Below, in pieces: positions 5,141 through 42,764 of a stretch of 64,000 bases of DNA. The notes under the pieces are model-generated. The model saw nothing but the letters and a program-made list of their open reading frames with translations, made no database searches and had not been told where the DNA came from. The number at the start of each line of letters is the position of its first letter. Position 1 is the first letter of the stretch. The DNA comes from Nocardiopsis gilva YIM 90087 (GTDB taxonomy: Bacteria; Actinomycetota; Actinomycetes; Streptosporangiales; Streptosporangiaceae), in NCBI RefSeq assembly GCF_002263495.1, contig NZ_CP022753.1, positions 3,534,001 through 3,598,000 on the forward strand, given 5' to 3'. Position numbers and translations under genes: made by a program.

Positions 5141-5330
5141 CTGCTCCCCTGCCTGAAGGGGAGGGGATTCTCTCCTTCAGGGCCAAGCGGGGATTCCTAG
5201 CTCAGGCAGCCAGATCAGGCAGCGCCTGATCTGGTCTTACGCCCTCAGCACTAGCCGGGGCCAGACCAGCCCGGACCAGCATCACACGCGCGGAGTTCTT
5301 GTCCCTCGGGGACACGGCCCCGCACGCGGT
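5141..5330 (-). ncRNA. candidate omega RNA of the TnpB element
   Basis: In IS605-type elements the guide RNA covers the 3' end of tnpB plus the right end, and its guide is the flanking DNA just outside the element. Here that region is the last ~130 bases of tnpB and the 61 bases to the hairpin at 5146-5161. The predicted guide starts at the element edge and reads TCAAACCACACAGCGCAGCG, the antisense of the 3' end of the MBL gene. Position inferred from the family, not from a visible promoter. Boundaries are approximate. Confidence 0.4.
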
Positions 5331-6422
5331 GCAGGCATACGTTCGTTCTGAGAGAGGCAGTGCGTGCTTGGTTCTCGCTGCGCACGACGCGCACTCCATG
5401 GTGGTATGCGCGGGATGCACGAGACGGACGTCCCGCCTGTGCTTGCGGCCCATCTCCACCAGCGCCCTCTTCGTGGCGCTAATGGCGGCGTCAGCCGCCT
5501 TGCGCGCCATGGTGGACTTGGCCAGGAACTTCGGACGAAAGTCCTCTACCGCGATCGCGTCGTGGTCGCGCACGACGCGCTTGGCCCATGTGCGCCCGGT
5601 GTCCTGCCGCTGCCTCGCCACCTTCCTGTGCAGCTTCGCGGCCTGCCGCTTCGCCGTCCGGTAGCCCTTCGAAGCGGGCTTGCCCTTCGCGGGTCTACGG
5701 CGGGCCATCAACCGCTGGTATCGGGCCAGCTTCGCAGCCGCCGTCTTGCCGTGCCCGGTGTGCGGAAGGTCGTGGGCGTCGGACGTGGTGGTCGCGGTCT
5801 CCTTCACACCCCAGTCCACACCGATCACCCGCCCGGTCTCCGGCATCGGTTGGACCTCGGCGGGAACCACGAACGAGGCATACCAGTGGCCGAGGTTGTC
5901 CTGATAGACGCGCACGCTGGACGCCTCAGCGGGCAGTTCCCGCGACCACACCACCCGCACAACGATCCCCCCGGCCAGATGCAAACGGCCGTCCTTGAGA
6001 CGGAATCCGCGCCGGGTGTAGTTCAGACTCGGCAGGGATTGGCGCTTCTTCTTCCATCGGGGCATCCCCGCACGCTGCCGCATGGGCAGGCGTTCCTTGA
6101 TGTCCTTCAGGGCCTTGGCGCGGGATTTCGCGAAATCCCGGATGGTCTGCTGCTGCGGGACGCTGCTTCCCTCGCGCAGCCACGCCGACGTCTGACGGGC
6201 CTGGGTCAGCATCGTGTCCAGCCGGGCCGGGCCGCATGTCACCTTCTGGCCGGTGGCCTTGTTGTGCGTGTGCACCTGTTTGGACTTGGCAACGCACTCG
6301 TTCCACACCCAACGGCACCGGTTCCACTCACCGATGAGGGCGGTGTGGGCGGTGGCCGACACGCGAAGCCGGTAGGTGTACCGGGCCTGCCCGGTATCTC
6401 CGGTGTTCTTCGGTGTCGCCAT
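5202..6422 (-). CDS. tnpB: TnpB RNA-guided nuclease (IS605 OrfB)
   Basis: About 406 residues, full length for TnpB. The N-terminal helix-turn-helix/WED-like part is followed by a RuvC-type nuclease with Asp203 in IGVDWGVKE, Glu293 in AVEDFRPK and Asp374 in SPRDKNSA. The inserted zinc finger has C344-x2-C347 and C364-x2-C367. All three catalytic acids and all four cysteines are kept, so it looks active. By established knowledge TnpB uses an RNA made from the element's right end to cut DNA next to a target-adjacent motif and so maintains the element. Starts at ATG 6422; a TTG at 6431 is possible. Confidence 0.93.
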   Translation of the reverse strand: MATPKNTGDTGQARYTYRLRVSATAHTALIGEWNRCRWVWNECVAKSKQVHTHNKATGQKVTCGPARLDTMLTQARQTSAWLREGSSVPQQQTIRDFAKSRAKALKDIKERLPMRQRAGMPRWKKKRQSLPSLNYTRRGFRLKDGRLHLAGGIVVRVVWSRELPAEASSVRVYQDNLGHWYASFVVPAEVQPMPETGRVIGVDWGVKETATTTSDAHDLPHTGHGKTAAAKLARYQRLMARRRPAKGKPASKGYRTAKRQAAKLHRKVARQRQDTGRTWAKRVVRDHDAIAVEDFRPKFLAKSTMARKAADAAISATKRALVEMGRKHRRDVRLVHPAHTTMECASCAARTKHALPLSERTYACTACGAVSPRDKNSARVMLVRAGLAPASAEGVRPDQALPDLAA

Positions 6423-7872: not shown

Positions 7873-8462
7873 CCGCCGCGTCGGCCGACGGCGGTGAGGT
7901 CGATGTCGATCGGGTAGGGGGCCGATGTCTTCAACCGGTCGTGGTGGATACCCCAGACCGCGTAGCAGGCCGTTACGGTATCGAGTTCGTAGAGGTAGGC
8001 AACAACCCGTGAACCCTCCTGCTCGATCCGCCAGTAGTGCTGGATTCCCGCCCTGGCGTACTTCTGCGGCTTGGTCTCGCGGTCACGCTCCCGGAATTCC
8101 GGAGACACCGCTTCAACGGCGAGGAGGACGTCCGACGCGAGATAGTGGGTCGCTTGGGGGTCGACCGCCTCGGCCGCGATAACGATGACGTCCGGTTCTG
8201 GCATCTGCCGTTCGCCGATACGCACCGACATCTCGCGGGTCGCCCGTAGGTGTTCAGGGGCCTGCCGGTCGAGTTCCTTACTGAACAGCTCGACGACCCA
8301 GCTGTGCCACTGCATCCGCGGACTCGCGAAAACGAGGCTGCCGTCGATGAGCTCGGTGTGCGGGGGAAGGCCGCGCATCTGAAGGAACTCGTCGGCGGTG
8401 AACCCACGAACCAGCCAGTCGGGAACCCGCTCGGTCGGCTCAGGAAGCGGCCCGGCAGCCAT
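7869..8462 (-). CDS. Uma2 family endonuclease-like protein (DUF820)
   Basis: 197 residues of the PD-(D/E)xK-related Uma2 family that is widespread in actinomycetes and cyanobacteria. The pattern is visible: HTELIDGSLVF near residue 40, the acid motif MPEPDVIVI near 90, VEAVSPEFRERDRETKPQKY with catalytic-type Glu and Lys, and GIQHYWRIE. Function in most hosts is unproven. It is divergent from mftA, 146 bp apart, and translationally coupled to the hydrolase downstream. Nothing suggests it belongs to the mycofactocin cluster. Confidence 0.88.
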   Translation of the reverse strand: MAAGPLPEPTERVPDWLVRGFTADEFLQMRGLPPHTELIDGSLVFASPRMQWHSWVVELFSKELDRQAPEHLRATREMSVRIGERQMPEPDVIVIAAEAVDPQATHYLASDVLLAVEAVSPEFRERDRETKPQKYARAGIQHYWRIEQEGSRVVAYLYELDTVTACYAVWGIHHDRLKTSAPYPIDIDLTAVGRRGG

Positions 8463-8543
8463 GGACTCAACCTATCCACACAGGGGGGACTCGGCAGGTG
8501 TTTCGCGCTCTCTTCCGTTCCGCCGTGAATACCGTTAACGTTT

Positions 8544-8576
8544 CGTGTGGTGGCGCGAATCACACGCTTGTGCGTG
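8544..8576. promoter_or_regulatory. dyad sites in the mftA upstream region
   Basis: The 146-bp gap between Uma2 and mftA holds CGTGTG (8544-8549) facing CACACG (8561-8566), and an overlapping CACGC (8563-8567) facing GCGTG (8572-8576). They lie 33-65 bases before the mftA start and are good candidates for an operator of the cluster. No convincing -10/-35 pair was resolved. The binding protein is unknown; the TetR protein at 18561 is one candidate. Confidence 0.35.
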
Positions 8577-8608
8577 CTGTGGCGCGCACGGTCGGCGAAG
8601 GGAACACG

Positions 8609-8746
8609 ATGAGCCCCGAACCCGCGATGCCCGTCCCCGCACCCCTCGACCCGCAGACCGGTCCCAGTGGCGACTACGAGGACCTGGTCGACGACGAACT
8701 CCTCGTGGAAGACGTCTCCATCGACGGCATGTGCGGCGTCTACTAG
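8609..8746 (+). CDS. mftA: mycofactocin precursor peptide MftA
   Basis: A 45-residue acidic peptide ending in SIDGMCGVY, the invariant C terminus of mycofactocin precursors. The last two residues, Val44 and Tyr45, are the ones converted by MftC (decarboxylation and ring closure) to the cofactor core. The leader is rich in Asp/Glu (DYEDLVDDELLVED), as expected for binding by the RRE-type chaperone MftB. Start ATG 8609 follows GAAGGGA by five bases; a longer in-frame ATG at 8498 has no such site and would add an unrelated Arg-rich stretch. First gene of the cluster. Confidence 0.95.
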   Translation: MSPEPAMPVPAPLDPQTGPSGDYEDLVDDELLVEDVSIDGMCGVY

Positions 8747-8757
8747 AAGCCCCAGGG

Positions 8758-9078
8758 ATGCCGGCCATGCCCGAGCCCGCGGACCTCGACCTCGACCGCG
8801 CCTGGGATGTGCACCCCCAGGTCGCCGTGCGCCCCGAACCGTTCGGCGCACTGCTCTACCACTTCGGCACCCGCCGCCTGTCATTCCTGAAGGACCCCCG
8901 GCTCCTGGACGTCGTGCGCGGGCTGCCCGACCACCCCAGCGCCCGCGCGGCCTGCGCCCAGGCCGGCGTCACCGAGGCCGAACTGCCCCGCTACGCCCGC
9001 GCGCTGGCCCGGCTGGCCGCCACCCACATGGTCATCGAACGTCCCCACGCCCCTGCCCCCGCGAAGGACCGCCCGTGA
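8758..9078 (+). CDS. mftB: mycofactocin biosynthesis chaperone MftB
   Basis: 106 residues, the size of MftB, a PqqD-like peptide-recognition (RRE) protein that presents MftA to MftC. Visible family features are the N-terminal AWDVHPQVAVRPEPFGALLYHFGTR... strand pattern and RLSFLKDPRLLDVV, followed by a helical C-terminal half. It starts 11 bases after mftA and its TGA overlaps the GTG of mftC, so the three are translated as a unit. The C-terminal PAPAKD tail is variable in the family. Confidence 0.93.
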   Translation: MPAMPEPADLDLDRAWDVHPQVAVRPEPFGALLYHFGTRRLSFLKDPRLLDVVRGLPDHPSARAACAQAGVTEAELPRYARALARLAATHMVIERPHAPAPAKDRP

Positions 9079-10364
9079 CCCATGCGACACCCCCACCGCC
9101 CGCCTCCGGCACGCGCCTGGTCGACCACTTCGAGCACGGCCTGTCCTCCCCCATCTGCCTGACCTGGGAGCTCACCTACGCCTGCAACCTGGCATGCGTG
9201 CACTGCCTGTCCAGCTCCGGGCGGCGCGACCCGCACGAACTGACCACCGCCGAAGCCAGGGCCGTCATCGACGAGCTGGCGGCCATGCAGGTCTTCTACG
9301 TCAACATCGGCGGCGGCGAACCCACCGTCCGCCCCGACTTCTGGGAGCTGCTCGACTACGCCACCACCCACCACGTCGGCGTCAAGTTCTCCACCAACGG
9401 CGTGAAGATCACCGACACCGTGGCACGCCGCCTGGCCGCCAACGACTACGTCGACGTGCAGATCTCCCTGGACGGCGCCACCGCCGAGGTCAACGACGCC
9501 GTGCGCGGCCCCGGCTCCTATGCCACCGCGCTGCGCGCCCTGGACCACCTGGCCGCGGCCGACACGGGCGGCGTCAAACTCTCGGTGGTGGTCACCCGGC
9601 ACAACATCGACCAGCTGGATGCCCTGCTGGGGCTGGCCGACCGCTACGGCGCCACGCTGCGGCTCACCCGTCTGCGCCCGGCGGGCCGCGGGGCGCGCGT
9701 GTGGAACGAGCTGCACCCCACCCCCGCCCAGCAGCGTGCCCTGTACGACTGGCTGCTGGACCACGGCCAGCGGGTCCTCACCGGCGACTCGTTCTTCCAC
9801 CTGTCGGCCTACGGCCACGCCCTGCCCGGCCTCAACCTGTGCGGCGCCGGGCGCGTGGTGTGCCTGATCGACCCACTCGGCGACGTCTATGCCTGCCCGT
9901 TCGCCATCCACGAGGAATTCTGGGCCGGGTCGGTGCGCGACCCGGGCGGGTTCACCCGGGTGTGGCGCTCCTCGGAGCTGTTCGCCCGGCTGCGCCGACC
10001 CGACACCGGCGGGGCCTGCGCCTCCTGCGACGCCTACGACGCCTGCCGGGGCGGGTGCATGGCGGCCAAGTTCTTCACCGGGCTGCCGCTGCAGGGACCC
10101 GACCCCGAGTGCGTCAAAGGGCACGGCGCCCACGCCCTGAACGGCGTCGACGCCGCCCGCACGCCCCGCCCCAGCCCCGACCACTCGCACCGGACCGGGC
10201 CGAGGGGCGCCCCTCCCGCCTCTCGGCCCCACGGCCGGTCGTCCCCGGGCCCCGTGCCGGTGACCATCGGCCGCCGCCCGCCGGCCGCACCGTGCGCCGA
10301 GCACCCCCTAGCCGACGTCCCCCCGACGCCCGAGCCGCCCGGTGGTCGCGCATGCGGGAGCTGA
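9075..10364 (+). CDS. mftC: mycofactocin radical SAM maturase MftC
   Basis: 429-residue radical SAM/SPASM enzyme. The SAM-cluster motif is C37-x3-C41-x2-C44 (CNLACVHC). SPASM cysteines follow in LNLCGAGRVVC, YACPF, CASCDAYDACRGGC and the last DPEC. GGGEPT is the SAM-binding glycine motif. By established knowledge it decarboxylates the MftA C-terminal Tyr and then links Val and Tyr into the lactam core. GTG start overlaps mftB. After the SPASM domain there is a ~65-residue Pro/Arg-rich tail containing PVTIGRRPP, and the tail overlaps the next gene by 13 bases. Confidence 0.96.
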   Translation: MTHATPPPPASGTRLVDHFEHGLSSPICLTWELTYACNLACVHCLSSSGRRDPHELTTAEARAVIDELAAMQVFYVNIGGGEPTVRPDFWELLDYATTHHVGVKFSTNGVKITDTVARRLAANDYVDVQISLDGATAEVNDAVRGPGSYATALRALDHLAAADTGGVKLSVVVTRHNIDQLDALLGLADRYGATLRLTRLRPAGRGARVWNELHPTPAQQRALYDWLLDHGQRVLTGDSFFHLSAYGHALPGLNLCGAGRVVCLIDPLGDVYACPFAIHEEFWAGSVRDPGGFTRVWRSSELFARLRRPDTGGACASCDAYDACRGGCMAAKFFTGLPLQGPDPECVKGHGAHALNGVDAARTPRPSPDHSHRTGPRGAPPASRPHGRSSPGPVPVTIGRRPPAAPCAEHPLADVPPTPEPPGGRACGS

Positions 10365-12376
10365 CCGGCCCGGTGGAGCTGGCCGGCCGCCGGGCACCCG
10401 CGCGCGTGGTGTTCGGCCCACACGCGACCAACCTCGGCGACGGCCGCGCCCTGTCACCGCGCCACACCGCTTACTACGAGCGGCGCGCCGCCGGCGGGGC
10501 CGGGGTGATCATCACCGAGACGGCCTCCGTCCACGCCGACGACCACCCCTATGAGCGCGCCCCGCTGGCCGCCGCGTGCCGCCACGGGTGGGCCGCGGTG
10601 GCCGAGGCCTGCCACGCCCACCGCGCCCTGGTGCTGGCCGGGCTCGGGCACGCCGGCTCCCAGGGCTCCAGCGCCTACTCCCAGCGTGTGTTGTGGGCGC
10701 CCTCGCCCGTGGCCGACGTCATCAGCCGCGAGATGCCCGCGGCCATGGAACGCGAGCAGATCGCCGAGGTCGTGGCGGGCTTCGGCGACGCCGCCGCGCT
10801 GGCCGCGCAGGCCGGGCTCGACGGGGTGGAGGTCGACGCGGGCGCCTGGGCGCTGCTGCGCCAGTTCCACTCGGCGCTGACCAACACCCGCACCGACGCA
10901 TACGGGGCCGACCGGCTGCGGCTGACCCGCGAGGTGCTGGCGGCGGTGCGGTCCTCCATCGGGCCGGGGCGCGTGCTGGCGCTGCGGCTGTCGTGCGACG
11001 AGCTGGCCCCCTGGGCTGGTGTCACCCCCGAGGCGGCGGCCGTCCAGGTGGCGGAGCTGGCCGGGGAGGTGGATCTGCTGACGGTGGTGCGCGGCGGCCC
11101 GTTGGCGCCGCGCGCCTACCGCCCCGACCTGCACACCCCGCCGGGGTTCAACCGCGAGCTGTGCGCGGCGATGCGCGCGGCGGCGGCCGGCCGGTGCGCG
11201 GTGGTGCTGCAGGGCAGCGTCGTGGACGCCGACCAGGCGCGCTCGGCGCTGGCCGCGGGGGTGGCCGACCTGGTGGAGATGACCCGGGCCCAGATCGCCG
11301 ACCCGGACCTGGTGGCCTGGGCGCGCGCCGGGGCGGTGGAGCGGATCCGCCCGTGTGTGCTGTGCAACCAGGCCTGCCAGGTCCGCGACCCGCGCAACCC
11401 GGTGGTGTCGTGCATCGCCGAGCCGCGCAGCGGGCACGAGGGCCAGGACCCGCCCGTGGCCGGGGAAGCCCCCGCGCAACGCGAAGTGCTGGTGGTCGGC
11501 GGCGGCACGGCGGGGCTGGAGTGCGCCCGGGTGCTGGCGCTGCGCGGACACCGGGTCACCCTGGCCGAACGCGCCGGGCACCTGGGCGGAATGCTGCGCA
11601 CGGCCACCGCCCCCGACAGCGGCGCCACGGCCTCAAGCCGCCGGCGGCTGGGGCTGCTGGTCGACTGGTGGGAGCGGGAGTGCCGCCGCCTGGGCGTGCG
11701 CGTGGAGCTCCAGCGGAGCATCGGCGTCGCCGACCTGGACGCGGCGGCCCAGGCGGGCCGCGACGTGGTGCTGGCCACGGGGTCGCGCCCCGCCGAGGGG
11801 CCCGCCCTGCCCCACACCCCCGGCCCGGGCGGGCACGACGAGGACGATGCGCCGGTGTGGCTGGATATCGCCGACGTGCTCGTCCGCCGCAGCCTGCTGC
11901 CCGCCGACGGGCCGCTGGTCCTGTACGACCCCGTGGGCGGACCGGTGGCGGTCGCGGCCTCCGAATGGCTGGCCGACCTGGGACGCGGCGTCCACCTCGT
12001 GACGCCCGCCCGCATCGTGGGCGAGCGGCTGGCGCTGTGCGGGGATCTGGCCGACGCCAACGCGCGGCTGCAGCGCGCCGGCGTCGCCCGCCACCCGCGC
12101 TCCCGGCTGTGCGCGGCGCGAAGGGGGCGGGTCGTGCTGGAGGACGTGTGGACCGCCCAGCGGCGCGAGATCGGCTGCGCCGGGGTGGTCGACTGCGGGC
12201 ACCGGCTGCCCGAGGAGTCCCTGTACACCCTGCGCCCCGGCACGCCGCGCGCCGGGGACTGCGTGGCGCCGCGCACCGTGCTCGAAGCGGTCCTGGAGGG
12301 GCGCCGCCGCGCGCTGGACCTGGACGCGCCCGCACACCAGAAGGCGCCCCACCGGGCCGCCCCCGCGCCCCGGTGA
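10352..12376 (+). CDS. mycofactocin-system FadH/OYE-family oxidoreductase 1
   Basis: 674 residues with the layout of 2,4-dienoyl-CoA reductase. An old-yellow-enzyme TIM barrel (FMN) covers about 1-330, followed by a 4Fe-4S motif CVLCNQACQV with a fourth Cys in VVSC near 350. A Rossmann domain (VVGGGTAGLECARVL, then a second nucleotide region) binds FAD/NAD(P)H. It passes hydride from NAD(P)H through FAD and the cluster to FMN. The substrate is unknown; location directly after mftC implies a mycofactocin-linked role, by inference. ATG at 10352 lies inside the end of mftC. Confidence 0.9.
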   Translation: MRELTGPVELAGRRAPARVVFGPHATNLGDGRALSPRHTAYYERRAAGGAGVIITETASVHADDHPYERAPLAAACRHGWAAVAEACHAHRALVLAGLGHAGSQGSSAYSQRVLWAPSPVADVISREMPAAMEREQIAEVVAGFGDAAALAAQAGLDGVEVDAGAWALLRQFHSALTNTRTDAYGADRLRLTREVLAAVRSSIGPGRVLALRLSCDELAPWAGVTPEAAAVQVAELAGEVDLLTVVRGGPLAPRAYRPDLHTPPGFNRELCAAMRAAAAGRCAVVLQGSVVDADQARSALAAGVADLVEMTRAQIADPDLVAWARAGAVERIRPCVLCNQACQVRDPRNPVVSCIAEPRSGHEGQDPPVAGEAPAQREVLVVGGGTAGLECARVLALRGHRVTLAERAGHLGGMLRTATAPDSGATASSRRRLGLLVDWWERECRRLGVRVELQRSIGVADLDAAAQAGRDVVLATGSRPAEGPALPHTPGPGGHDEDDAPVWLDIADVLVRRSLLPADGPLVLYDPVGGPVAVAASEWLADLGRGVHLVTPARIVGERLALCGDLADANARLQRAGVARHPRSRLCAARRGRVVLEDVWTAQRREIGCAGVVDCGHRLPEESLYTLRPGTPRAGDCVAPRTVLEAVLEGRRRALDLDAPAHQKAPHRAAPAPR

Positions 12377-12415
12377 CCCCGGCCCAGGAGCCCACGAGCA
12401 GGAGAGGAGGCGCCG

Positions 12416-14494
12416 ATGAACCCGCCCGGGCCCGCCGCCGGACGCGGCACCTACCGCCACCTGTTCACCCCGCTGCGCCTGGGCCCACTGACGGTAGCCA
12501 ACCGCATCGTGTTCTGCGCCCACCTGACCAACTACGCCGACAACGGCCGCCCCACCGCCCAGCACGCGGCCTACTACGCCGCCCGCGCGGCGGGCGGGGC
12601 CGGGCTGATCATCACCGAGGAGCACTCCACCCACCCCACCGACCGCCCCTACGAAAAACTCATCGAGGGCTATGCGCCCGGCGTCGTCGACGACTACCGG
12701 CGCCTCACCGATGCCGTCCACGCCCACGACGTGCCGATCCTGGCCCAGCTCAACCACAACGGCGGGCAGGCCAGCTCCATGTACACCCGGCTGCCGGTGT
12801 GGGCGCCCAGCCCGATCGCCGACCCGCTGTTCGGCGAGGTGCCCAAGGCGGTCGAGGAGCACGAGATCACCGAGATCACCGACGCCTACGCCCAGGTGGC
12901 CGCCCACTGTGTGGCGGGCGGTTTCGACGGGGTGGAGCTGCAGTGCTCGCACTCCTCCATCGTCCGCGCCTTCCTCTCCCCGGCCACCAACCACCGCACC
13001 GACCGCTGGGGCGGCCCACTGCCCAACCGCGCACGGCTCCTGCTGCACCTCATCGACGCCGTGCGCGCGGCCGTGGGACCGGACCGGGTCGTGGGGGTGC
13101 GCCTGTGCGGGGACGAGCTGATCGAGGGCGGCACCACCATCGACGAGGCGGTGGAGGTGGCCCGGATGGTGGACGCCACCGGCCAGGTCGACTACCTCAA
13201 CACCTCCATCGGGGTGGCCACCCACACCCTGCACATGGTCGAGGCGAGCATGCGCGTCCCGCCGGGCTATGCCGCCTACATCCCCACCGCGATCCGCGCG
13301 GCGGTGCGCCTCCCGGTGGTGGGGGTGGGCCGCTTCAAGGACCCGCTGCAGGCCGACCGGGCCCTGGGTGCCGGGCACGCCGACCTCGTCGGTGTGGTGC
13401 GCGGGCAGATCGCCGACCCCGACTTCGCCGCCAAGGCGCGCTCCGGCCACGCCGAGGAGATCCGCACCTGCCTGTCGTGCAACCAGGAGTGCGTGGGGCG
13501 CATGGGGCTCAACCGGTGGCTGGGGTGCATCGAGAACCCGCACGCGGGACACGAGGCGGCACCGGCAGACTCGGCGGGCGCCGCCGGGGCTGCCGGTGCG
13601 CGCGGTGAGAGCGGCGGGGTGGCGGCCCCGGCCGCGGTCTCCCTTCCGGCCACCGGGGCCGTGTGGGGGCGACCGGGGCGGCGCGTGCTGGTCGTGGGCG
13701 GTGGACCGGGCGGCCTGCAGGCCGCGGTCAGCGCCGCCGAGCGCGGCCATAGGGTCACCCTCATCGAGCGCGAGGGACAGCTGGGCGGCCAGGTGCCCAT
13801 CGCCGCGCGGGCGCCCGGCCGCGCCGAGTTCCTCGACCTCACCCGCAACCTCGCCGCCCACGTCCGCCGCCTGGGCGTCGATGTCGAACTCGGGACCGAG
13901 GCCGATGCCCAGATGCTCGCGGCGCGGCGCCCGCACGCGGTGGTCCTGGCGACCGGCGCCGTGCCCGCGGCACCGTGGTGGGCCCACGGGCACGCGCGCG
14001 CGGTGGACGTCCGCGACGTCCTCCAGGGGCGGGCGGACCCGGCCGGGCGCGTGGTGGTCGTCGACGAGCTGGGCTTCCACCAGGCCACCTCGGTGGCCGA
14101 GCTACTGGCCGAACGGGGATGCGAGGTGGAGGTGATGACCCCGGCCCTGGTCGTCGGCCAGGACCTGGGGATCACCCTCGACCTGGAGACCTGGAACGTG
14201 AAGGCGGACGCACTGGGGATCCGCCAGAGCACCGACCGGGTGCCGATGGGCGCCGAGGAACTGCCGGGCCCGGCGGGCGGGGTGCTGCTGCGTCTCCAGC
14301 ACCACCCCACGGGAGCCGAGGAGACGCGGGAGGTGGACTGGGTGGTGTGCGCCGTGCACCAGCGGCCCGACGACGACCTGTGGCACGCCCTGCACGGCTC
14401 CCCCTTCACCGTCCACCGCGTCGGCGACTGCCTGGCCCCGCGCCGCGCGCACGCGGCCGTCGCCGAAGGCCACGCCGTGGCGGTGGGCCTATGA
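12416..14494 (+). CDS. mycofactocin-system FadH/OYE-family oxidoreductase 2
   Basis: 692 residues, paralogue of the preceding gene with the same three-part layout: FMN barrel (IVFCAHLTNYADNG, LAQLNHNGGQASS), 4Fe-4S ligands CLSCNQEC plus a Cys in WLGC, and an FAD/NAD(P)H domain (LVVGGGPGGLQAAV). An Ala/Gly-rich linker of about 40 residues joins cluster and Rossmann parts. AGGAGAGGAGG lies just before the ATG. It starts 39 bases after oxidoreductase 1. The two proteins may form a pair or act on different substrates; the sequence does not decide. Confidence 0.9.
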   Translation: MNPPGPAAGRGTYRHLFTPLRLGPLTVANRIVFCAHLTNYADNGRPTAQHAAYYAARAAGGAGLIITEEHSTHPTDRPYEKLIEGYAPGVVDDYRRLTDAVHAHDVPILAQLNHNGGQASSMYTRLPVWAPSPIADPLFGEVPKAVEEHEITEITDAYAQVAAHCVAGGFDGVELQCSHSSIVRAFLSPATNHRTDRWGGPLPNRARLLLHLIDAVRAAVGPDRVVGVRLCGDELIEGGTTIDEAVEVARMVDATGQVDYLNTSIGVATHTLHMVEASMRVPPGYAAYIPTAIRAAVRLPVVGVGRFKDPLQADRALGAGHADLVGVVRGQIADPDFAAKARSGHAEEIRTCLSCNQECVGRMGLNRWLGCIENPHAGHEAAPADSAGAAGAAGARGESGGVAAPAAVSLPATGAVWGRPGRRVLVVGGGPGGLQAAVSAAERGHRVTLIEREGQLGGQVPIAARAPGRAEFLDLTRNLAAHVRRLGVDVELGTEADAQMLAARRPHAVVLATGAVPAAPWWAHGHARAVDVRDVLQGRADPAGRVVVVDELGFHQATSVAELLAERGCEVEVMTPALVVGQDLGITLDLETWNVKADALGIRQSTDRVPMGAEELPGPAGGVLLRLQHHPTGAEETREVDWVVCAVHQRPDDDLWHALHGSPFTVHRVGDCLAPRRAHAAVAEGHAVAVGL

Positions 14495-34692: not shown

Positions 34693-35970
34693 ATGGCCGG
34701 CATCGACTACCGGCGCGCCAGCCGCACCAACCTGCTGGCCTGGTCACTGCTGTTCGTCGCCCACGCCGCCACCGGGCTCATCCTCCTCGTCCTCTACGCC
34801 CTGGCCACCGTCCTCTCCCTCATCTGGGTCGGCGTCCCCCTCATCGTCCTGCTCACCACCCTCATCCGCGGCCACGCCGACACCCACCGCACCATGCTCG
34901 GCCACTTCCTGCCCGACGGACCCGTCCCCTCCCCCTACGACCCACTGCCCCCCACCGGCGTCGGCCGCCGCGCCGGCGCCATCCTCACCGACCCCGCCAC
35001 CTGGCGCGACCTCACCTGGCTCCTCGTCAACGGCCTCTTCGGCGCCGTCATCGCCGCCCTGCCCGCCCTCCTCATCGCCCAAGCCGCCCACCTCACCCTC
35101 TACAGCACCGTCCTGTGGAACGACGCCCCCAGCGGCTACTACAACCTCACCCCACCCCACGACCAGGCCGGCGCCCTCATCACCCTGCTCCCCGCCCTCC
35201 TCCTCGCCCTCGTCTACTGGGTCATCACCCCCATCAGCGTCAGCGGCTACGCCCACCTCAACCGCTGGCTCCTCGCCCCCAACGAAAAAGCCCGCCTCGC
35301 CCAACGCGTCGCCCACCTGGCCACCTCCCGCGCCGAAACCATCGACGCCCAAGCCTCCGAAGTCCGCCGCATCGAACGCGACCTCCACGACGGCGCCCAA
35401 GCCCGCCTCGTCGCCCTCGGCATGAGCCTCGGCATGGCCGAACAAATGCTCGCCCAGGACCCCCACACCGCCCAACAACTCCTCGCCGAAGCCCGCGACA
35501 GCACCCGCCAAGCCCTCACCGAACTCCGCGACCTCGTCCGCGGCATCCACCCGCCCGTCCTCGTCGAACGCGGACTCCAAGGCGCCGTCCGCGCCCTGGC
35601 CGTCACCCACCACCTGCCCATCGACGTCGACATCGACCTCCCCGGCCGCCTCGCCGCCCCCGTCGAATCCGCCGCCTACTTCGCCATCGCCGAAATCCTC
35701 ACCAACGCCGCCAAACACTCCGGCGCCACCCGCGCCTGGGTCCGCATCAACCACGGCGGCGACCGCCTCGTCCTCCTCGTCGGCGACGACGGAAAAGGCG
35801 GCGCCGACCTCTCCAAAGGCACCGGACTGCAGGGCATCCGGCGCAGACTCGACGCATTCGATGGCACGATAAGCATTGTCAGCCCGGCAGGCGGGCCGAC
35901 TATCGTCACAATGGAGCTCCCGTGCGTGTTGTCATCGCCGAAGACCTCGCCCTCCTCCGCGATGGACTGA
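34693..35970 (+). CDS. sensor histidine kinase with putative sensor domain
   Basis: 425 residues. An N-terminal 'putative sensor' domain with about four membrane segments is followed by a helix and HisKA_3 motif RRIERDLHDGAQARLVALGM near residue 232. RDLVRGIHPPVLVERGL and AEILTNAAKHSGA (N box) come next, then GDDGKGG and GLQGIRRRLDA. The codons are strongly C-ending. The gene overlaps the regulator by 49 bases, which means tight coupling. Signal unknown; cell-envelope stress is common for this class. Confidence 0.92.
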   Translation: MAGIDYRRASRTNLLAWSLLFVAHAATGLILLVLYALATVLSLIWVGVPLIVLLTTLIRGHADTHRTMLGHFLPDGPVPSPYDPLPPTGVGRRAGAILTDPATWRDLTWLLVNGLFGAVIAALPALLIAQAAHLTLYSTVLWNDAPSGYYNLTPPHDQAGALITLLPALLLALVYWVITPISVSGYAHLNRWLLAPNEKARLAQRVAHLATSRAETIDAQASEVRRIERDLHDGAQARLVALGMSLGMAEQMLAQDPHTAQQLLAEARDSTRQALTELRDLVRGIHPPVLVERGLQGAVRALAVTHHLPIDVDIDLPGRLAAPVESAAYFAIAEILTNAAKHSGATRAWVRINHGGDRLVLLVGDDGKGGADLSKGTGLQGIRRRLDAFDGTISIVSPAGGPTIVTMELPCVLSSPKTSPSSAMD

Positions 35971-36569
35971 TCCGGCTGCTGCAAGCCCACGAATTCGAGG
36001 TCGTCGCCGCCGTCGACAACGGCCCAGACCTCCTCAAAGCCCTCCTGGAGCACCGGCCCGACGTCGGCGTCGTCGACGTACGCCTGCCCCCCACCTTCAC
36101 CGACGAAGGACTCCAGGCCGCCATCGAAGCCAGACGCCACGTCCCCGGGCTGCCCATCCTCGTGCTCTCCCAGCACGTCGAACAGCTCTACGCCCGCGAA
36201 CTCCTCTCCGACGACGGCGGCGCCGTGGGCTACATGCTCAAAGACCGCGTCTTCGACATCGGCCAGTTCATCGACGCCATCCGCCGCGTCGCCGCCGGCG
36301 GCACCGCCATGGACCCCGCCGTCATCTCCCAGCTGCTGGCCAAACACAGCGAAGACGGCCCCCTCGCCGCCCTCACCCCCCGCGAACGCGAAGTCCTCAG
36401 CGAAATGGCCGAAGGCCGCTCCAACTCCGCCATCGCCCAACGCCTCTTCATCACCGAAAAAGCGGTCAGCAAGCACATCAACAACATCTTCACCAAGCTC
36501 GACCTGCCGCCCTCCAACGACGACAGCCGCCGCGTCCTCGCCGTGCTCGCCTACCTCAACAACGCCTGA
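35922..36569 (+). CDS. LuxR-family response regulator
   Basis: 215 residues. Receiver: VVIAEDLALL, phospho-acceptor Asp in VGVVDVRLPP, Ser in VLSQHV, Lys in YMLKDRV. GerE domain: LTPREREVLSEMAEG and ITEKAVSKHINNIFTKL. The start is GTG at 35922, inside the kinase gene, with GGAG eight bases upstream; an ATG at 35911 is in a different frame. Partner of the preceding kinase. Confidence 0.93.
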   Translation: MRVVIAEDLALLRDGLIRLLQAHEFEVVAAVDNGPDLLKALLEHRPDVGVVDVRLPPTFTDEGLQAAIEARRHVPGLPILVLSQHVEQLYARELLSDDGGAVGYMLKDRVFDIGQFIDAIRRVAAGGTAMDPAVISQLLAKHSEDGPLAALTPREREVLSEMAEGRSNSAIAQRLFITEKAVSKHINNIFTKLDLPPSNDDSRRVLAVLAYLNNA

Positions 36570-36735: not shown

Positions 36736-38742
36736 CTACTCGCGCGGGCCCGCCTCCGGACTCCGGTACAACCCGTCGATCTCCTCAGCGAACGCCCGCA
36801 GCACCGCATCACGCCGCAACTCACCCGAGGGCAGCACCAACCCGCTCTGCGGCGTGAACTCCTCAGCCAGCACATGAAACGCCCGCACCGCCAACCCCGG
36901 CGGCACCGTCCCGTTCGCCTCATGCACGATCGCCTGGATCTCCTTCAGCAGCTCCGGGTCGGCCGCGATCTCCTCCGGCGCCATCGACAACGGCCGGTTG
37001 TTCACCAGCCGCCAGTACTCCAACTGGTCACGCACCAGCGTGATCAGCGCGCTGACATACGGCCGCCCCTGCCCGATCAGCATCACCTGGCTCACCAGCG
37101 GGTGCGCCTGCAACCGCTGCTCCAGCGCCGCCACCTGGTCCACCGCCGCACCAACCGCAGCCTGCGCCGGTGACGCAGGCGGAGCGGCAGGGGCGGGCGC
37201 CGGTGTCGGCTCCGGCTGCGCCTCCGACATCGCGGGCGCCGCCGCCTCCGGCTCCACCGCCGACATCGGACCGCTCTCCACCGCAGCACCCCCGCCCCGC
37301 GGCCCCCAGGGGCGCGGCTCCGGCGGCGCCAGCGGCGCCTCCAAGGTCGCCTGCGGGCGCACGCGCTGCGCCACCCTCACATACCCCTCGGCATCCATCT
37401 CACCGACGAACCCCGTGGCCAGCCACCCATCGCGGAACGCCGCACGACCGGCCGCCTCATCGCCCCAATACCCACCGAACACGCCCGCACCGCGCACATG
37501 CAGCTCACCCTCACGCGACAACCGCACCTCAACACCCGGCAACGGCCGCCCCTGCGCCCCCGCACGACGCTCCCCCGGAGCATTCACCACGAACGCACCA
37601 CCGGACTCCGGGATCCCAAACGCCTGGTACACCGGGATCCCCGCACCGCTGTAAAACCGGTCCATCTTCTCGCTCAGCGGCCACCCCGCACACACGATGA
37701 ACTGCGCCCGGCCACCCAACGACTCCCGGATCCGCGCATACATCCAGTCGTACATCGCCATCGACACCCGCTTCCAGGCGCCCTTGCGCTCGGCCCGGTC
37801 GAAATCCACCGCCAGATCCGTGGCCGCGTTATACGCGTTCAGACTGTCCCAGCTCGTCTCCCGCGCCCGCGCCCGCTCAACCGCGTGCACCGCCTCCAAC
37901 AACCGCGGCGTGGCCACCACCACCGTGGGCCGAAACTCCCGCACCGCACGCAGCCACCCCGCACCCAGCGGCAACAGGCCCACCCGCACCTGCCCCACCA
38001 GGCACGCCACCAGCGCCGCCACCCCATGCACATCCGAAGGAGGCAGCTGCAGCAGCGCCGCCGCACGCCCCTCCTCGACATCCGCCAGCGCCGGGCCCAA
38101 CCGGCCCACCACACCCTCGGCCGCCGCCAGCACATTCCCGTGCGTCAACACCGCACCACGGGCCCGCACCACACGCCCCACCGGGTAGGCGATCACCGCC
38201 GGATCCCCCCGACGCGTCTCCTCCCGCCGAAACCGCACCGCCGTGGGATCCATATAGGCGCCCGGACGCGCGATCGCCTCCAAGCCCCCCTCATCCAACC
38301 GCCACGTCCGCGCCAGCTCCGTCAACTCCGCCGAAATCCCCGCGACCGTGCCCGCATGGCGCCCATCCTCCAACACCACCGCGGCCGGACCGCAGTCCCG
38401 CAACACATGACGCAGCCGCTCCGCCGACGCCGACGACGGCACCGGCACCACCACCGCGCGCACCACCCACGCCGCGAACGCCACCAGCGCCCACTCATAG
38501 CGGGCACCACACACCACCACGATCCGGTCACCCGCACCCACACCCGCGGCGATCAGACCCTTGGCCAGCGACGTCACCTCACTGAGGAACTCACCCGCCG
38601 CCACATGCTCCCAGCCGCCCTCAGCACCACGACGCGCAAACACCTTGCTGCGCGCCGCCGTATTGGCACGGTGATAGGCGATATCCCCCAGCACCTCAAA
38701 GCGCGGGGCCTGCGCCACCCCATCCGAGCGCGACTGCCGCAT
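36736..38742 (-). CDS. degenerate long-chain acyl-CoA synthetase-like protein
   Basis: 668 residues with the fold order of FadD15-type AMP-forming ligases, but the active-site motifs are altered. The ATP loop expected as TSGTTGRPKG reads YPVGRVVRARG before AVLTHGN. The T-E-T motif reads FGIPESGG. The conserved TGD-x-G reads TGFVGEMD. The GRKK(E) hinge with its catalytic-region Lys is replaced by a ~75-residue Pro/Ala-rich linker. The lid domain then resumes (HPLVSQVMLIGQGRP). It is probably not an acyl-CoA ligase; a binding or regulatory role is inferred. Met at 38742 chosen because upstream residues are Gly-rich filler. Confidence 0.8.
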   Translation of the reverse strand: MRQSRSDGVAQAPRFEVLGDIAYHRANTAARSKVFARRGAEGGWEHVAAGEFLSEVTSLAKGLIAAGVGAGDRIVVVCGARYEWALVAFAAWVVRAVVVPVPSSASAERLRHVLRDCGPAAVVLEDGRHAGTVAGISAELTELARTWRLDEGGLEAIARPGAYMDPTAVRFRREETRRGDPAVIAYPVGRVVRARGAVLTHGNVLAAAEGVVGRLGPALADVEEGRAAALLQLPPSDVHGVAALVACLVGQVRVGLLPLGAGWLRAVREFRPTVVVATPRLLEAVHAVERARARETSWDSLNAYNAATDLAVDFDRAERKGAWKRVSMAMYDWMYARIRESLGGRAQFIVCAGWPLSEKMDRFYSGAGIPVYQAFGIPESGGAFVVNAPGERRAGAQGRPLPGVEVRLSREGELHVRGAGVFGGYWGDEAAGRAAFRDGWLATGFVGEMDAEGYVRVAQRVRPQATLEAPLAPPEPRPWGPRGGGAAVESGPMSAVEPEAAAPAMSEAQPEPTPAPAPAAPPASPAQAAVGAAVDQVAALEQRLQAHPLVSQVMLIGQGRPYVSALITLVRDQLEYWRLVNNRPLSMAPEEIAADPELLKEIQAIVHEANGTVPPGLAVRAFHVLAEEFTPQSGLVLPSGELRRDAVLRAFAEEIDGLYRSPEAGPRE

Positions 38743-38958
38743 GCCGGCTACTCCTCCACCTACGGGGGCCGCCACCCGGCCGCCACCCTCGCGTCGCAAC
38801 AACGACGAACGTCACCTGAACGAGCCCTACTGTGCACGGTTTCCTCACCCAACGGCAACTCCCCACCACGCCCCGGACCTGCACGCACACCCCCACCACC
38901 GCTCGACACCAGGCCTTTGGTCCTTGAGCCCCGCCCACCCCCGGCACACTGACCCCCC

Positions 38959-40017
38959 ATGACCCCCACACACAAACTCACCACCCTCCTGGCCGCCCTC
39001 ACCCTGGCCACCACCCCCGCACCCACCGCACACGCCGACACCCCCACCCCACCCCCGCCACCGTGGCCACCTCCGGCCACCACATCGACCCCCGCCCCAG
39101 CACCGCCGAACTCACCCGCCGCCTCCACCGCCTCGAAAACCGCAGCCACGGCCACATCGACGTCACCGAAATCGGCCGCACCAACCAAAACCGGCCCATC
39201 TACAACGCCACCGTCGGCACCGGCCCCGACGCCTCCTCTACATCACCCAGCAACACGGCGACGAACCCCTCGGCACCCCCGCCGCCCTCGAATTCCTCCG
39301 CCACATCGGCACCGGCACCACCCCTGGCACCGCTGGATCCGCTCCCGCCTCACCATCGACATCGTCGTCCGCGCCAACCCCGACGGCTCCGAACTCAACT
39401 GGCGCTACAACCACGACCCCCACGCCGACCCCGAATACGGCCACAAAGGCAAGGGCTACGACCCCAACCGCTACCACGACCCCGCCCTACACCCCGACGA
39501 CAACCCTGTCCCCGAATCCGCCGCCGTCCAACGCACCTACGCCCAAGCCGACCCCGACATCGTCGTCGACTACCACATGCAAGGCCGCTACACCGACGCC
39601 CACGGGCGCGAAATCACCGCCTCCGTCATGTGGCCCACCCACCCCGACGTCGACACCCGCACCACCGACCTCGCCCGCCAAGTCTCCGTCGCCGCCGCCC
39701 AGGCCATGAACGCCTCCCACCCCACCGCCAACGTCAGCACCTACCCCGGCGGCAACTACCAGGGCATCGCCCGCAACGCCTACGGCCTGCGCGGCAGCGG
39801 CAGCGTCCTCATCGAACTCAGCGCCATCGGCCCCCACGCCCAACAGCGCCAAATCCACTCCGCAATCGCCGCCATGACCGCCATCGCCCAACGCTCCGCC
39901 GACGGCTCCCTCACCCGCATCGACCCCGCCCGCGCCGACGACATCCCACCGCGCGGCGCCCCCATCCCCAGCAACGACCGCGCTCTGACCGCCGGCCCCG
40001 CCGACACCCTCGACTGA
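38959..40017 (+). pseudogene. secreted M14-family zinc carboxypeptidase, frameshifted as read
   Basis: A signal peptide (MTPTHKLTTLLAALTLA, cleavage near AHADT) is in the first frame. HHIDPRPSTAELTRRLHRLE and EIGRTNQNRP follow in the next frame. ITQQHGDEPLG, with the zinc ligands of the HxxE motif, is in the third. DIVVRANPDGSELNW, YHMQG (third zinc His) and SVLIELSAIG (catalytic Glu) are back in the first. All three steps are minus-one. Every M14 catalytic element is therefore present once the frame is joined. It would cleave C-terminal residues of peptides outside the cell. Confidence 0.75.
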
Positions 40018-40384: not shown

Positions 40385-40584
40385 ACCCGCCACCCCTCTC
40401 CAATCCCGCGACAACACGTGCCAAGCGCCGCCACCGTAACCACCCCCACCGACAAACCCCACACACCACCAACACCCACCTCCAGCCCCACACGCCCCGC
40501 GTTTGGCAGCAGTCACACCACGGGTACAAACCATCCCTAACCACCCCACACCAGCCGCTACCCCTGCCCCGGAAACGGCCCACC

Positions 40585-41530
40585 ATGACCACCACCGCCA
40601 TCGCCACCCGCTACCACCACTTCGCCACCCACGAAGCCACCACCTCCCCCTCTACACCGAACTCGCCCACGGCATCGCCGCCGACCCCACCCTCCTCGCC
40701 CTCCTCAACACCCTCCCCCGCGCTGCCACCAGCCCAACCTCCTCTTCGCCGCCACCCGCCACCTCACCGGCACCCCCACCTCCTTCCCCCAACTCCGCCG
40801 CACCCTCCTCGACAACTGGCACCACATCGCCCCCCTCATGCAACACCGCCGCACCCAAACCAACGAACCCGCCCGCTGCGCACCCCTCCACCCCCTCCTC
40901 ACCGCCCTCCCCAACCCCTCACCCTCATCGAAGTCGGCGCCTCCGCCGGCCTCTGCCTCTACCCCGACCGCTACGCCTACGACACCAACGGCCACCTCAC
41001 CGGCGACCCCCACTCCCCCTCCGCATCACCGCACCCGCCACCGGCCCCACCCCACCCACACACCCCCACCTCGACATCGCCGCACGCATCGGCATCGACC
41101 TCAACCCCTCGACATCAACGACCCCGACGACACACGCTGGCTCCACAGCCTCATCTGGCCCGAACACCACCAACGCACCAAACGCCTCGACGCCGCCCTC
41201 ACCATCGCCCGCGCCGACCCGCCCCACCTCATCCAAGGCGACCTCAACCAGCGCCTCCCCGACGCCATCGCCCAAGCCCCGCCACCAGCACCGTCGTCGT
41301 CTTCCACACCATCGTCCTCAGCTACCTGACCGACGACGAACGCCACCGCTTCACCGAACAGATCCGCGCCCTCGACGTCCACTGGCTCGCCCAAGAACCC
41401 CCGCCGCCCTCCCCCACATCACCGCCCCGAACCCGACCCCCGCCCCGGCTACACCCACCTCCTCACCCACAACGAGCGCCCCCTCGCCTACACCGACCCC
41501 CACACCGGCGCCGCCCACTGGTTCACCTGA
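40585..41530 (+). pseudogene. DUF2332 family protein, multiply frameshifted as read
   Basis: The full DUF2332 sequence can be followed from ATG 40585 to TGA 41528-41530 only by changing frame about seven or eight times: RYHHFATHEA, YTELAHGIAADPTLLALL, LLFAATRHLTGTP, RRTQTNEPARC, IEVGASAGLCLYPDRYAYD, IAARIGIDLNP, DPDDTRWLHSLIWPE, VVVFHTIVLSYL, HITAPNP, RPLAYTDPHTG. Every change is a single-base loss. Order and spacing are right for the family (SAM-methyltransferase-like, function unknown). So many identical-type lesions in an otherwise conserved protein suggest consensus errors in C-runs, not decay. Confidence 0.75.
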
Positions 41531-41619: not shown

Positions 41620-42000
41620 TCAGCGCACCAGCGAATCCAACAACCGCTCCAACTCCCCCTCCGGATCATCGGTCAACCCGGTGTGAATCGGCCCCGGCTG
41701 CACAATCGTGCTGCGCGGCGACGTCAGCCAACGGAACCTCCGCCCCGCCGACTCACCCCCCGCCGCACCCGCAGCACCACCGCCCTGGCACACCGCCTCC
41801 ACCGCATCCAGAGCCCGACGCACCCCCGCCACATCCACCGAGGCGTCCAACGCCGACAACCGACCCTCATCCAACGCACACCGCGCCGCCAAGAACCCCC
41901 GCGCCTGGCAGTACACGATCACCCCCGCATTGACCTGCTCACCGCGCTCCACCCGCGGAACCACCCGCACCAGCGCGTACTCGAACACCACCTGCGTCAC
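41620..42000 (-). CDS. DUF3037 family protein
   Basis: 126 residues. FEYALVRVVPRVERGEQVNAGVI is the conserved DUF3037 opening, followed by YCQARGFLAARCALDE and, near the end, RFRWLTSPRSTIVQPGPIHTGL with a DPEGELERLLD tail. The function of the family is unknown. Its ATG overlaps the TGA of the HipA-like gene by four bases, and this order (HipA-like then DUF3037) recurs in actinomycetes, so the two products probably work together. Confidence 0.88.
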   Translation of the reverse strand: MTQVVFEYALVRVVPRVERGEQVNAGVIVYCQARGFLAARCALDEGRLSALDASVDVAGVRRALDAVEAVCQGGGAAGAAGGESAGRRFRWLTSPRSTIVQPGPIHTGLTDDPEGELERLLDSLVR

Positions 42001-42764
42001 CGGGCCACCTCCGGCAACCAGCCGCGCTCCGCCACCCGCGCCAGCAAATGCGCAACGAACGCCTCACGCACCTCCTGCACCGAACCGAACCCCGGCTCCT
42101 CCACCAGCCACTCATCCGGCACCAGGGCCGTCACCTCCGACAGCAGCTCCTCCGTCACCAACGGCGCCAGCACCGCATCCGCCGCCACCACATCCGGCCC
42201 CGCCGGAAGCAGCACATGCTCCGACGCGTCATAGGCCCGCGCCACAGCACCGTCCGACCCCCGCCAGTTGTGCTGAAAGATCAGCGTCGCCCCGTGGTCG
42301 ATGAGGTACGGCGCACCATGCCACACCAGCATGTTCGGGTTCCGCCACGTCCGATCCACGTTGCCGACCAGTGCGTCGAACCACAGCACCCGCCCGGCGA
42401 ACGCCGCGTCCACCTCAAAGGCCAGCGGATCGAACCCCAGCGACCCCGGCAGAAAGTCCATCCCCAGGTTCAGCCCACCACTGGCCTTCAGCAGCTCCTG
42501 CACCTCCGGATCGGGCTCACCGCGACCGATCACCGCGTCGAACTCCACCAGCACCAGCTCCGGAACCGGCAACCCCAACGCCCGACCCAGCTCACCCGAG
42601 ACCACCTCGGCGACCAGCGTCTTGCGCCCCTGCCCCGCACCCCGGAACTTCACCACGTACATGCCCAGGTCATCAGCCTCGACCAGACCTGGCAACGATC
42701 CACCTTCGCGCAACGGCAGCACGTACCGCGTCGCGGAAACTTCTCTCAACACGCCGATCAGCAT
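41997..42764 (-). CDS. HipA-like kinase family protein
   Basis: 255 residues. Features of the HipA kinase fold are VVKFRGAGQGRKTLVAEVVSGEL (glycine-rich loop and helix), LVEFDAVIG, WFDALVGNVDRTWRNPNML with the catalytic Asp-x4-Asn, and YLIDHGATLIFQ (metal-binding Asp, usually D-F-G or D-x-G-like). This is the shorter HipA_2 group, not the persister toxin HipA itself. ATG 42764 follows GGAGGGG. The start lies only 30 bases from the divergent nucleotidyltransferase start. Confidence 0.85.
   Translation of the reverse strand: MLIGVLREVSATRYVLPLREGGSLPGLVEADDLGMYVVKFRGAGQGRKTLVAEVVSGELGRALGLPVPELVLVEFDAVIGRGEPDPEVQELLKASGGLNLGMDFLPGSLGFDPLAFEVDAAFAGRVLWFDALVGNVDRTWRNPNMLVWHGAPYLIDHGATLIFQHNWRGSDGAVARAYDASEHVLLPAGPDVVAADAVLAPLVTEELLSEVTALVPDEWLVEEPGFGSVQEVREAFVAHLLARVAERGWLPEVAR

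Follow-up and report, generated by a model that had tools for sequence, protein, structure and literature searches.

The gene at positions 36736-38742 of the window (the whole stretch of 64,000 nucleotides that was analysed) probably encodes an acyl-CoA-synthetase pseudoenzyme derived from a duplicated long-chain FACS, in which the N-terminal domain would serve as a platform and the tethered C-terminal domain as a docking module, so that the whole protein would scaffold or regulate the activation of fatty acids. Descent from an enzyme family, conserved loss of the catalytic residues and retention by selection, as expected of a pseudoenzyme, were all found. The pseudo-enzyme proposed in the first-pass annotation was thus upheld as a candidate by losses common to 38 members of one clade in combination with purifying selection.

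The gene and its translation start were located as follows.

36736..38742, minus strand: pseudo acyl-CoA synthetase gene, 668 codons (668 aa) starting with ATG at 38742, assigned from the open frame, Pfam PF00501 and PF23562, orthologues and dN/dS
38751..38760, minus strand: Shine-Dalgarno-like GGTGGAGGAG, read directly, 8 bases upstream of the ATG at 38742

The ribosome-binding site was good and the 668-aa product matched the Pfam families AMP-binding (7.7e-45) and AMP-binding_C_3 (9e-9). It scored far under the cut-offs of the curated NCBIfam ligase models, the best being FadD11 with 150 bits against 950, and the nearest PDB sequences were acyl-CoA ligases, e.g., 3ivr and FadD13. Residue numbers given below belong to the 688-aa frame from an upstream TTG at 38802, and 20 has to be subtracted for the 668-aa protein. 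A chance open frame in DNA of 71% GC was ruled out by the Pfam matches, orthologues and selection: because of its dN/dS, the frame must be regarded as selected. An assembly artefact was ruled out as well, the frame and the motif losses recurring in dozens of independent genomes. The intact 668-residue frame with an acyl-CoA-synthetase fold, as originally described, was therefore confirmed by agreement of the open frame, Pfam matches, orthologues and dN/dS.

Catalytic motifs were compared between the clade set of 38 members (the query and 37 relatives) and a reference of 24 motif-complete FACS from the same and related genomes, "motif-complete" being a statement on their sequences and not on assayed activity. 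All but the last of the following features were defined against these motif-complete relatives.

38155..38187, minus strand: degenerate A3 ATP loop YPVGRVVRARG
37600..37620, minus strand: altered A5 motif FGIPESG with the Glu kept
37408..37416, minus strand: A7 motif TGD changed to TGF, the ribose-binding Asp being lost
37351..37368, minus strand: A8 hinge GRKK changed to QRVRPQ
36811..36840, minus strand: A10 segment LVLPSGELRR with the catalytic Lys replaced by Glu, from the orthologue alignment

The four motif changes claimed in the first-pass annotation were found to differ in completeness. The ATP loop is altered: YTSGTTGxPKG of the 24 motif-complete relatives has become YPVGRVVRARG, which does not match the P-loop consensus [ST]SG[ST]TGxPKG, and A3 is altered in all 38 clade members with replacements varying among the subclades. 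TGD is likewise altered, the Asp position being occupied by F in the query and, among the relatives, by V/F/Y or a different residue. For A5, the loss is only partial: YGLTET has changed to FGIPES and the Thr is gone, but the Mg-binding Glu (E399) is kept in the query and in at least 95% of the members, with Arg at this position in L067. Similarly, the change of GRKK to QRVR removed both Lys, while the Arg is kept in the query and most members. To these must be added a loss missing from the earlier motif list, that of the A10 Lys, where TPTLKLRR reads LPSGELRR in the query and the segment is without Lys in every clade member, and the loss of the A4 His in the clade. Orthologues keeping the motifs, whose existence would have spoken against a pseudo-enzyme according to the first reading of the gene, were looked for among the 38 clade members and none (0/38) was found.

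In ANL enzymes, the A8 hinge lets the C domain rotate through ~140 degrees, and the two half reactions employ lysines of A8 and A10 (PMC11253843). Because both of these lysines are missing and the hinge is followed by a loose tether, the usual catalytic route is unlikely to operate, albeit some residual nucleotide or acyl chemistry may persist, given that the Glu of A5 and the Arg of A8 are kept. An enzyme that still adenylates with ATP through unorthodox motifs would accommodate these two retained residues and also an N-domain dN/dS (0.15-0.24) at or below that of the motif-complete copies; we consider it improbable, however, as the ATP loop, the A7 Asp and both catalytic Lys are missing in every member and the ATP loop varies between the subclades. 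Among the 145 columns that are at least 95% invariant in the 24 motif-complete FACS, 59 persist in less than 10% of the clade and 45 in at least 95%, many of the latter being Gly, Trp and Pro which look structural. A further 53 positions are invariant specifically in the clade and not in the motif-complete copies, and many of those in the C domain fall within the run RDQLEYWRLVN.

The predicted architecture consists of two domains separated by an unusual linker.

37357..38691, minus strand: N-terminal AMP-binding (ANL large) domain with an intact predicted fold, from AlphaFold2 (pLDDT about 90) and Foldseek
37129..37350, minus strand: variable 74-residue linker between A8 and the C domain, from length comparison, low confidence in the model and dN/dS
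36757..37134, minus strand: hyperconserved C-terminal domain (AMP-binding_C_3), from identity, dN/dS and Pfam (1.1e-10)

The best fold match of the N domain, by Foldseek on the AlphaFold2 model, was the N domain of FadD13 (TMt 0.84). The C domain gave a low-confidence model in two AlphaFold runs, in the whole protein and alone, likely owing to too uniform an alignment; its family assignment is a profile match, and its putative docking surface is read from conservation only. The segment from A8 to the C domain comprises 74 residues in the query versus exactly 12 in all 24 motif-complete relatives, and it is modeled by AlphaFold2 with low confidence. The long linker noted previously (as 75 residues, rich in Pro and Ala) is thus real, and that of the query is indeed 53% Pro+Ala, but this richness is not shared by the relatives: since their linkers vary from 31 to 127 residues (clade median 72.5) and differ in composition, the length and variability are the conserved trait, not the Pro/Ala content. 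The linker dN/dS to the same-genus orthologue was 0.85.

The distribution of constraint along the protein was analysed by pairwise dN/dS (NG86) in close pairs. For the pseudoenzyme, the N domain gave 0.15-0.24, the linker 0.49-0.85 and the C domain 0.03-0.08, as compared to 0.25-0.28 (N) and 0.21-0.47 (C) in the motif-complete copies. The mean identity in matched genomes was 0.585 for N and 0.798 for C in the pseudoenzyme, while the two motif-complete groups had N/C values of 0.753/0.758 and 0.765/0.719, i.e., their domains evolve alike. As this difference in the domain pattern shows, the constraint has moved from the once-catalytic domain to the tethered C domain, which is now constrained above the level of the ancestral enzymes; the N domain is still constrained, with a faster long-run divergence. 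The pattern is one of repurposing, not of decay. A pseudogene or relic in early decay is accordingly the least credible of the readings, and it was ruled out by the dN/dS pattern and the clade-specific invariant residues: one orthologue (L044) with its C domain out of frame and two frameshifted neighbouring genes in the window might point in that direction, but the whole gene is in frame in the other orthologues examined and both domains have a dN/dS well under 1, with the lowest values in C. The L044 case, a Nocardiopsis orthologue at 8001-9952 of CP074402.1, is either a frameshift or a sequencing error.

The contig scan, in which the mean pairwise identity among orthologues was 89% for the C domain and 70% for most of the N domain, raised the question of whether the C domain works alone, for example by interacting with the adjacent two-component system or the product of the HipA-like gene, with the N domain reduced to a solubility or anchoring body. 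Besides the identity values, this would fit with the response regulator adjoining the gene convergently in all Nocardiopsis loci extending that far. We give it a low probability, since purifying selection acts on the N domain as well, a sister copy (B) keeps N without C, and the gene in G011 has no adjacent two-component system.

The same scan found orthologues in 35 contigs, which came from Nocardiopsis, Streptomonospora nanhaiensis and a record bearing the name Glycomyces fuscus. Another orthologue (86%) was present in a further species belonging to the window's genus, and others in two further genera of the family (G011, G012). The 38 members examined, all sharing the motif loss, represent Nocardiopsis and three more genera of its family. 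Among the 13 genomes inspected, no orthologue was seen in those of five other family genera, nor in four genomes of other families; these limits of distribution depend on the 13 genomes and on a contig scan that finds close relatives only, with a sample skewed to Nocardiopsis. The record titled Glycomyces fuscus (L014, NYMS01000059.1) has a Nocardiopsis-like locus and groups with Nocardiopsis, and its organism is probably misnamed. In the tree, which was a quick search with SH-aLRT support only, 15 sampled orthologues and a second degenerate copy formed one clade (support 100) nested inside the motif-complete FACS, with a stem of 1.01 changes per site. Judged from this topology, the motif loss is ancestral and of single origin. 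The examined genomes also carry motif-complete paralogues. The second degenerate FACS copy, found in the window's genus, consists of the N domain only, its C domain being fully lost.

G000:C1:3417550-3418929: second degenerate FACS copy (L002, L081), with its counterpart L049/L084 in G001

Conserved neighbours, suggested previously as a check on function, are present, but their identities do not point to any function.

34693..35970, plus strand: sensor histidine kinase (PF13796/HisKA_3), conserved neighbour from locus comparison
35922..36569, plus strand: LuxR-type response regulator, convergent, conserved neighbour from locus comparison
41623..41994, minus strand: DUF3037, conserved neighbour from locus comparison
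42000..42764, minus strand: HipA_2-type kinase-like gene, conserved neighbour from locus comparison

The order in the Nocardiopsis loci is HipA_2-type kinase, DUF3037, MFS transporter, pseudoenzyme gene, convergent response regulator and sensor kinase. In the window's genus, the locus is without the MFS gene and has DUF2332 and M14 peptidase genes instead, and this weakened a functional link to the upstream transporter. The two-component system may be a partner, but it is not adjacent to the pseudoenzyme gene in G011. The neighbours are conserved but name no pathway, and HipA_2, DUF3037, MFS and the two-component system do not suggest a lipid pathway. Several other features of the region were recorded. 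The M14 peptidase and DUF2332 genes of the window (38959-40017 and about 40580-41530) look frameshifted and are intact in the sister species (L085); they are either pseudogenes or assembly errors at C-runs. A strong strand asymmetry exists between 34700 and 43000, where the plus strand is rich in C whichever way the genes run, with a GC skew of about -0.2 to -0.5. In almost every Nocardiopsis locus, the matching stretch (L013-L047) has an excess of G on the strand of the gene, a weak one in L030. Elsewhere in the window, mycofactocin genes are located at 8758-14494 (MftB, radical SAM maturase and two FadH/OYE family oxidoreductases) and a gene for a TnpB-type RNA-guided endonuclease at 5202-6422 on the minus strand.

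In the mechanism proposed for the pseudoenzyme, adenylation would be absent, judging from the missing catalytic residues of the ATP loop, A7, A8 and A10. The N domain would form a folded platform on which an acyl chain or acyl-CoA may still be held, and the tethered C domain would dock onto a conserved partner, possibly a motif-complete FACS present in the same cell or else a lipid or regulatory protein; the whole protein would thereby scaffold or regulate fatty-acid activation. Binding of acyl groups, as proposed at first, is plausible, while docking or regulation is at least as favoured because the strongest constraint lies on the C domain and not on the acyl/ATP domain. A broader reading, to which we would give slightly less than an even chance, is that of a bacterial ANL-fold pseudoenzyme family whose C domain, freed from the hinge and placed on a disordered tether, has become the main conserved element for docking or regulation; in Nocardiopsis and its relatives, these proteins would probably control the activation of fatty acids or the traffic of acyl groups. 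Pseudoenzymes are familiar among kinases, phosphatases and proteases, while a literature search with most subscription journals outside its scope returned nothing relevant on those of the ANL superfamily. The clade arose once, shows a measurable displacement of constraint towards the C domain and has a naturally occurring sister copy with the N domain only, which makes it a clean case for testing the reuse of an enzyme fold in binding or regulation. Annotation as active acyl-CoA ligases is an easy mistake with such genes.

The main rival to a scaffold or regulator comes from comparison with AuaE, which we take to be a member of the adenylating superfamily and for which we know of no linker like that of the query. 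AuaE, acting in aurachin biosynthesis, moves anthranilate from CoA to ACP and also accepts anthranilate-AMP (PMC10295502). By analogy, the query might be an ATP-independent acyltransferase binding acyl-CoA, or acyl-AMP from an active FACS, and passing the acyl group to a carrier or another acceptor. Apart from the AuaE precedent, the N domain, predicted to be still folded, is constrained, and the 53 clade-specific invariant positions hint at a new function. Nevertheless, we regard such an activity as unlikely: with both mobile-domain lysines gone and a tether of variable length, an ordered thioesterification conformation is hardly expected, and no carrier protein or biosynthetic genes were recognised beside the pseudoenzyme gene. 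The likeness to AuaE is that of a protein standing beside a true ligase and doing another job (PMC10295502), and the difference is the lack of carrier or pathway genes near the query. FadD13 of M. tuberculosis (PDB 3t5c/3r44), which the N domain resembles most in fold, is classified as a fatty-acyl-CoA synthetase, while the query is without the motifs such an enzyme needs.

The closest relationship is to the FACS with PF00501 and PF23562, a family which we take to be FadD15-like. The query shares with them the two-domain homology and the N-domain fold and is nested among them in the tree; of the properties expected from an active FACS, it possesses this homology and fold and the A5 Glu, and lacks an intact A3, the A7 Asp, the A8 Lys with a short link and the A10 Lys. 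In contrast to the FACS with their 12-residue link, the clade has a tether of 31-127 residues, and its C domain has become more constrained than the N domain.
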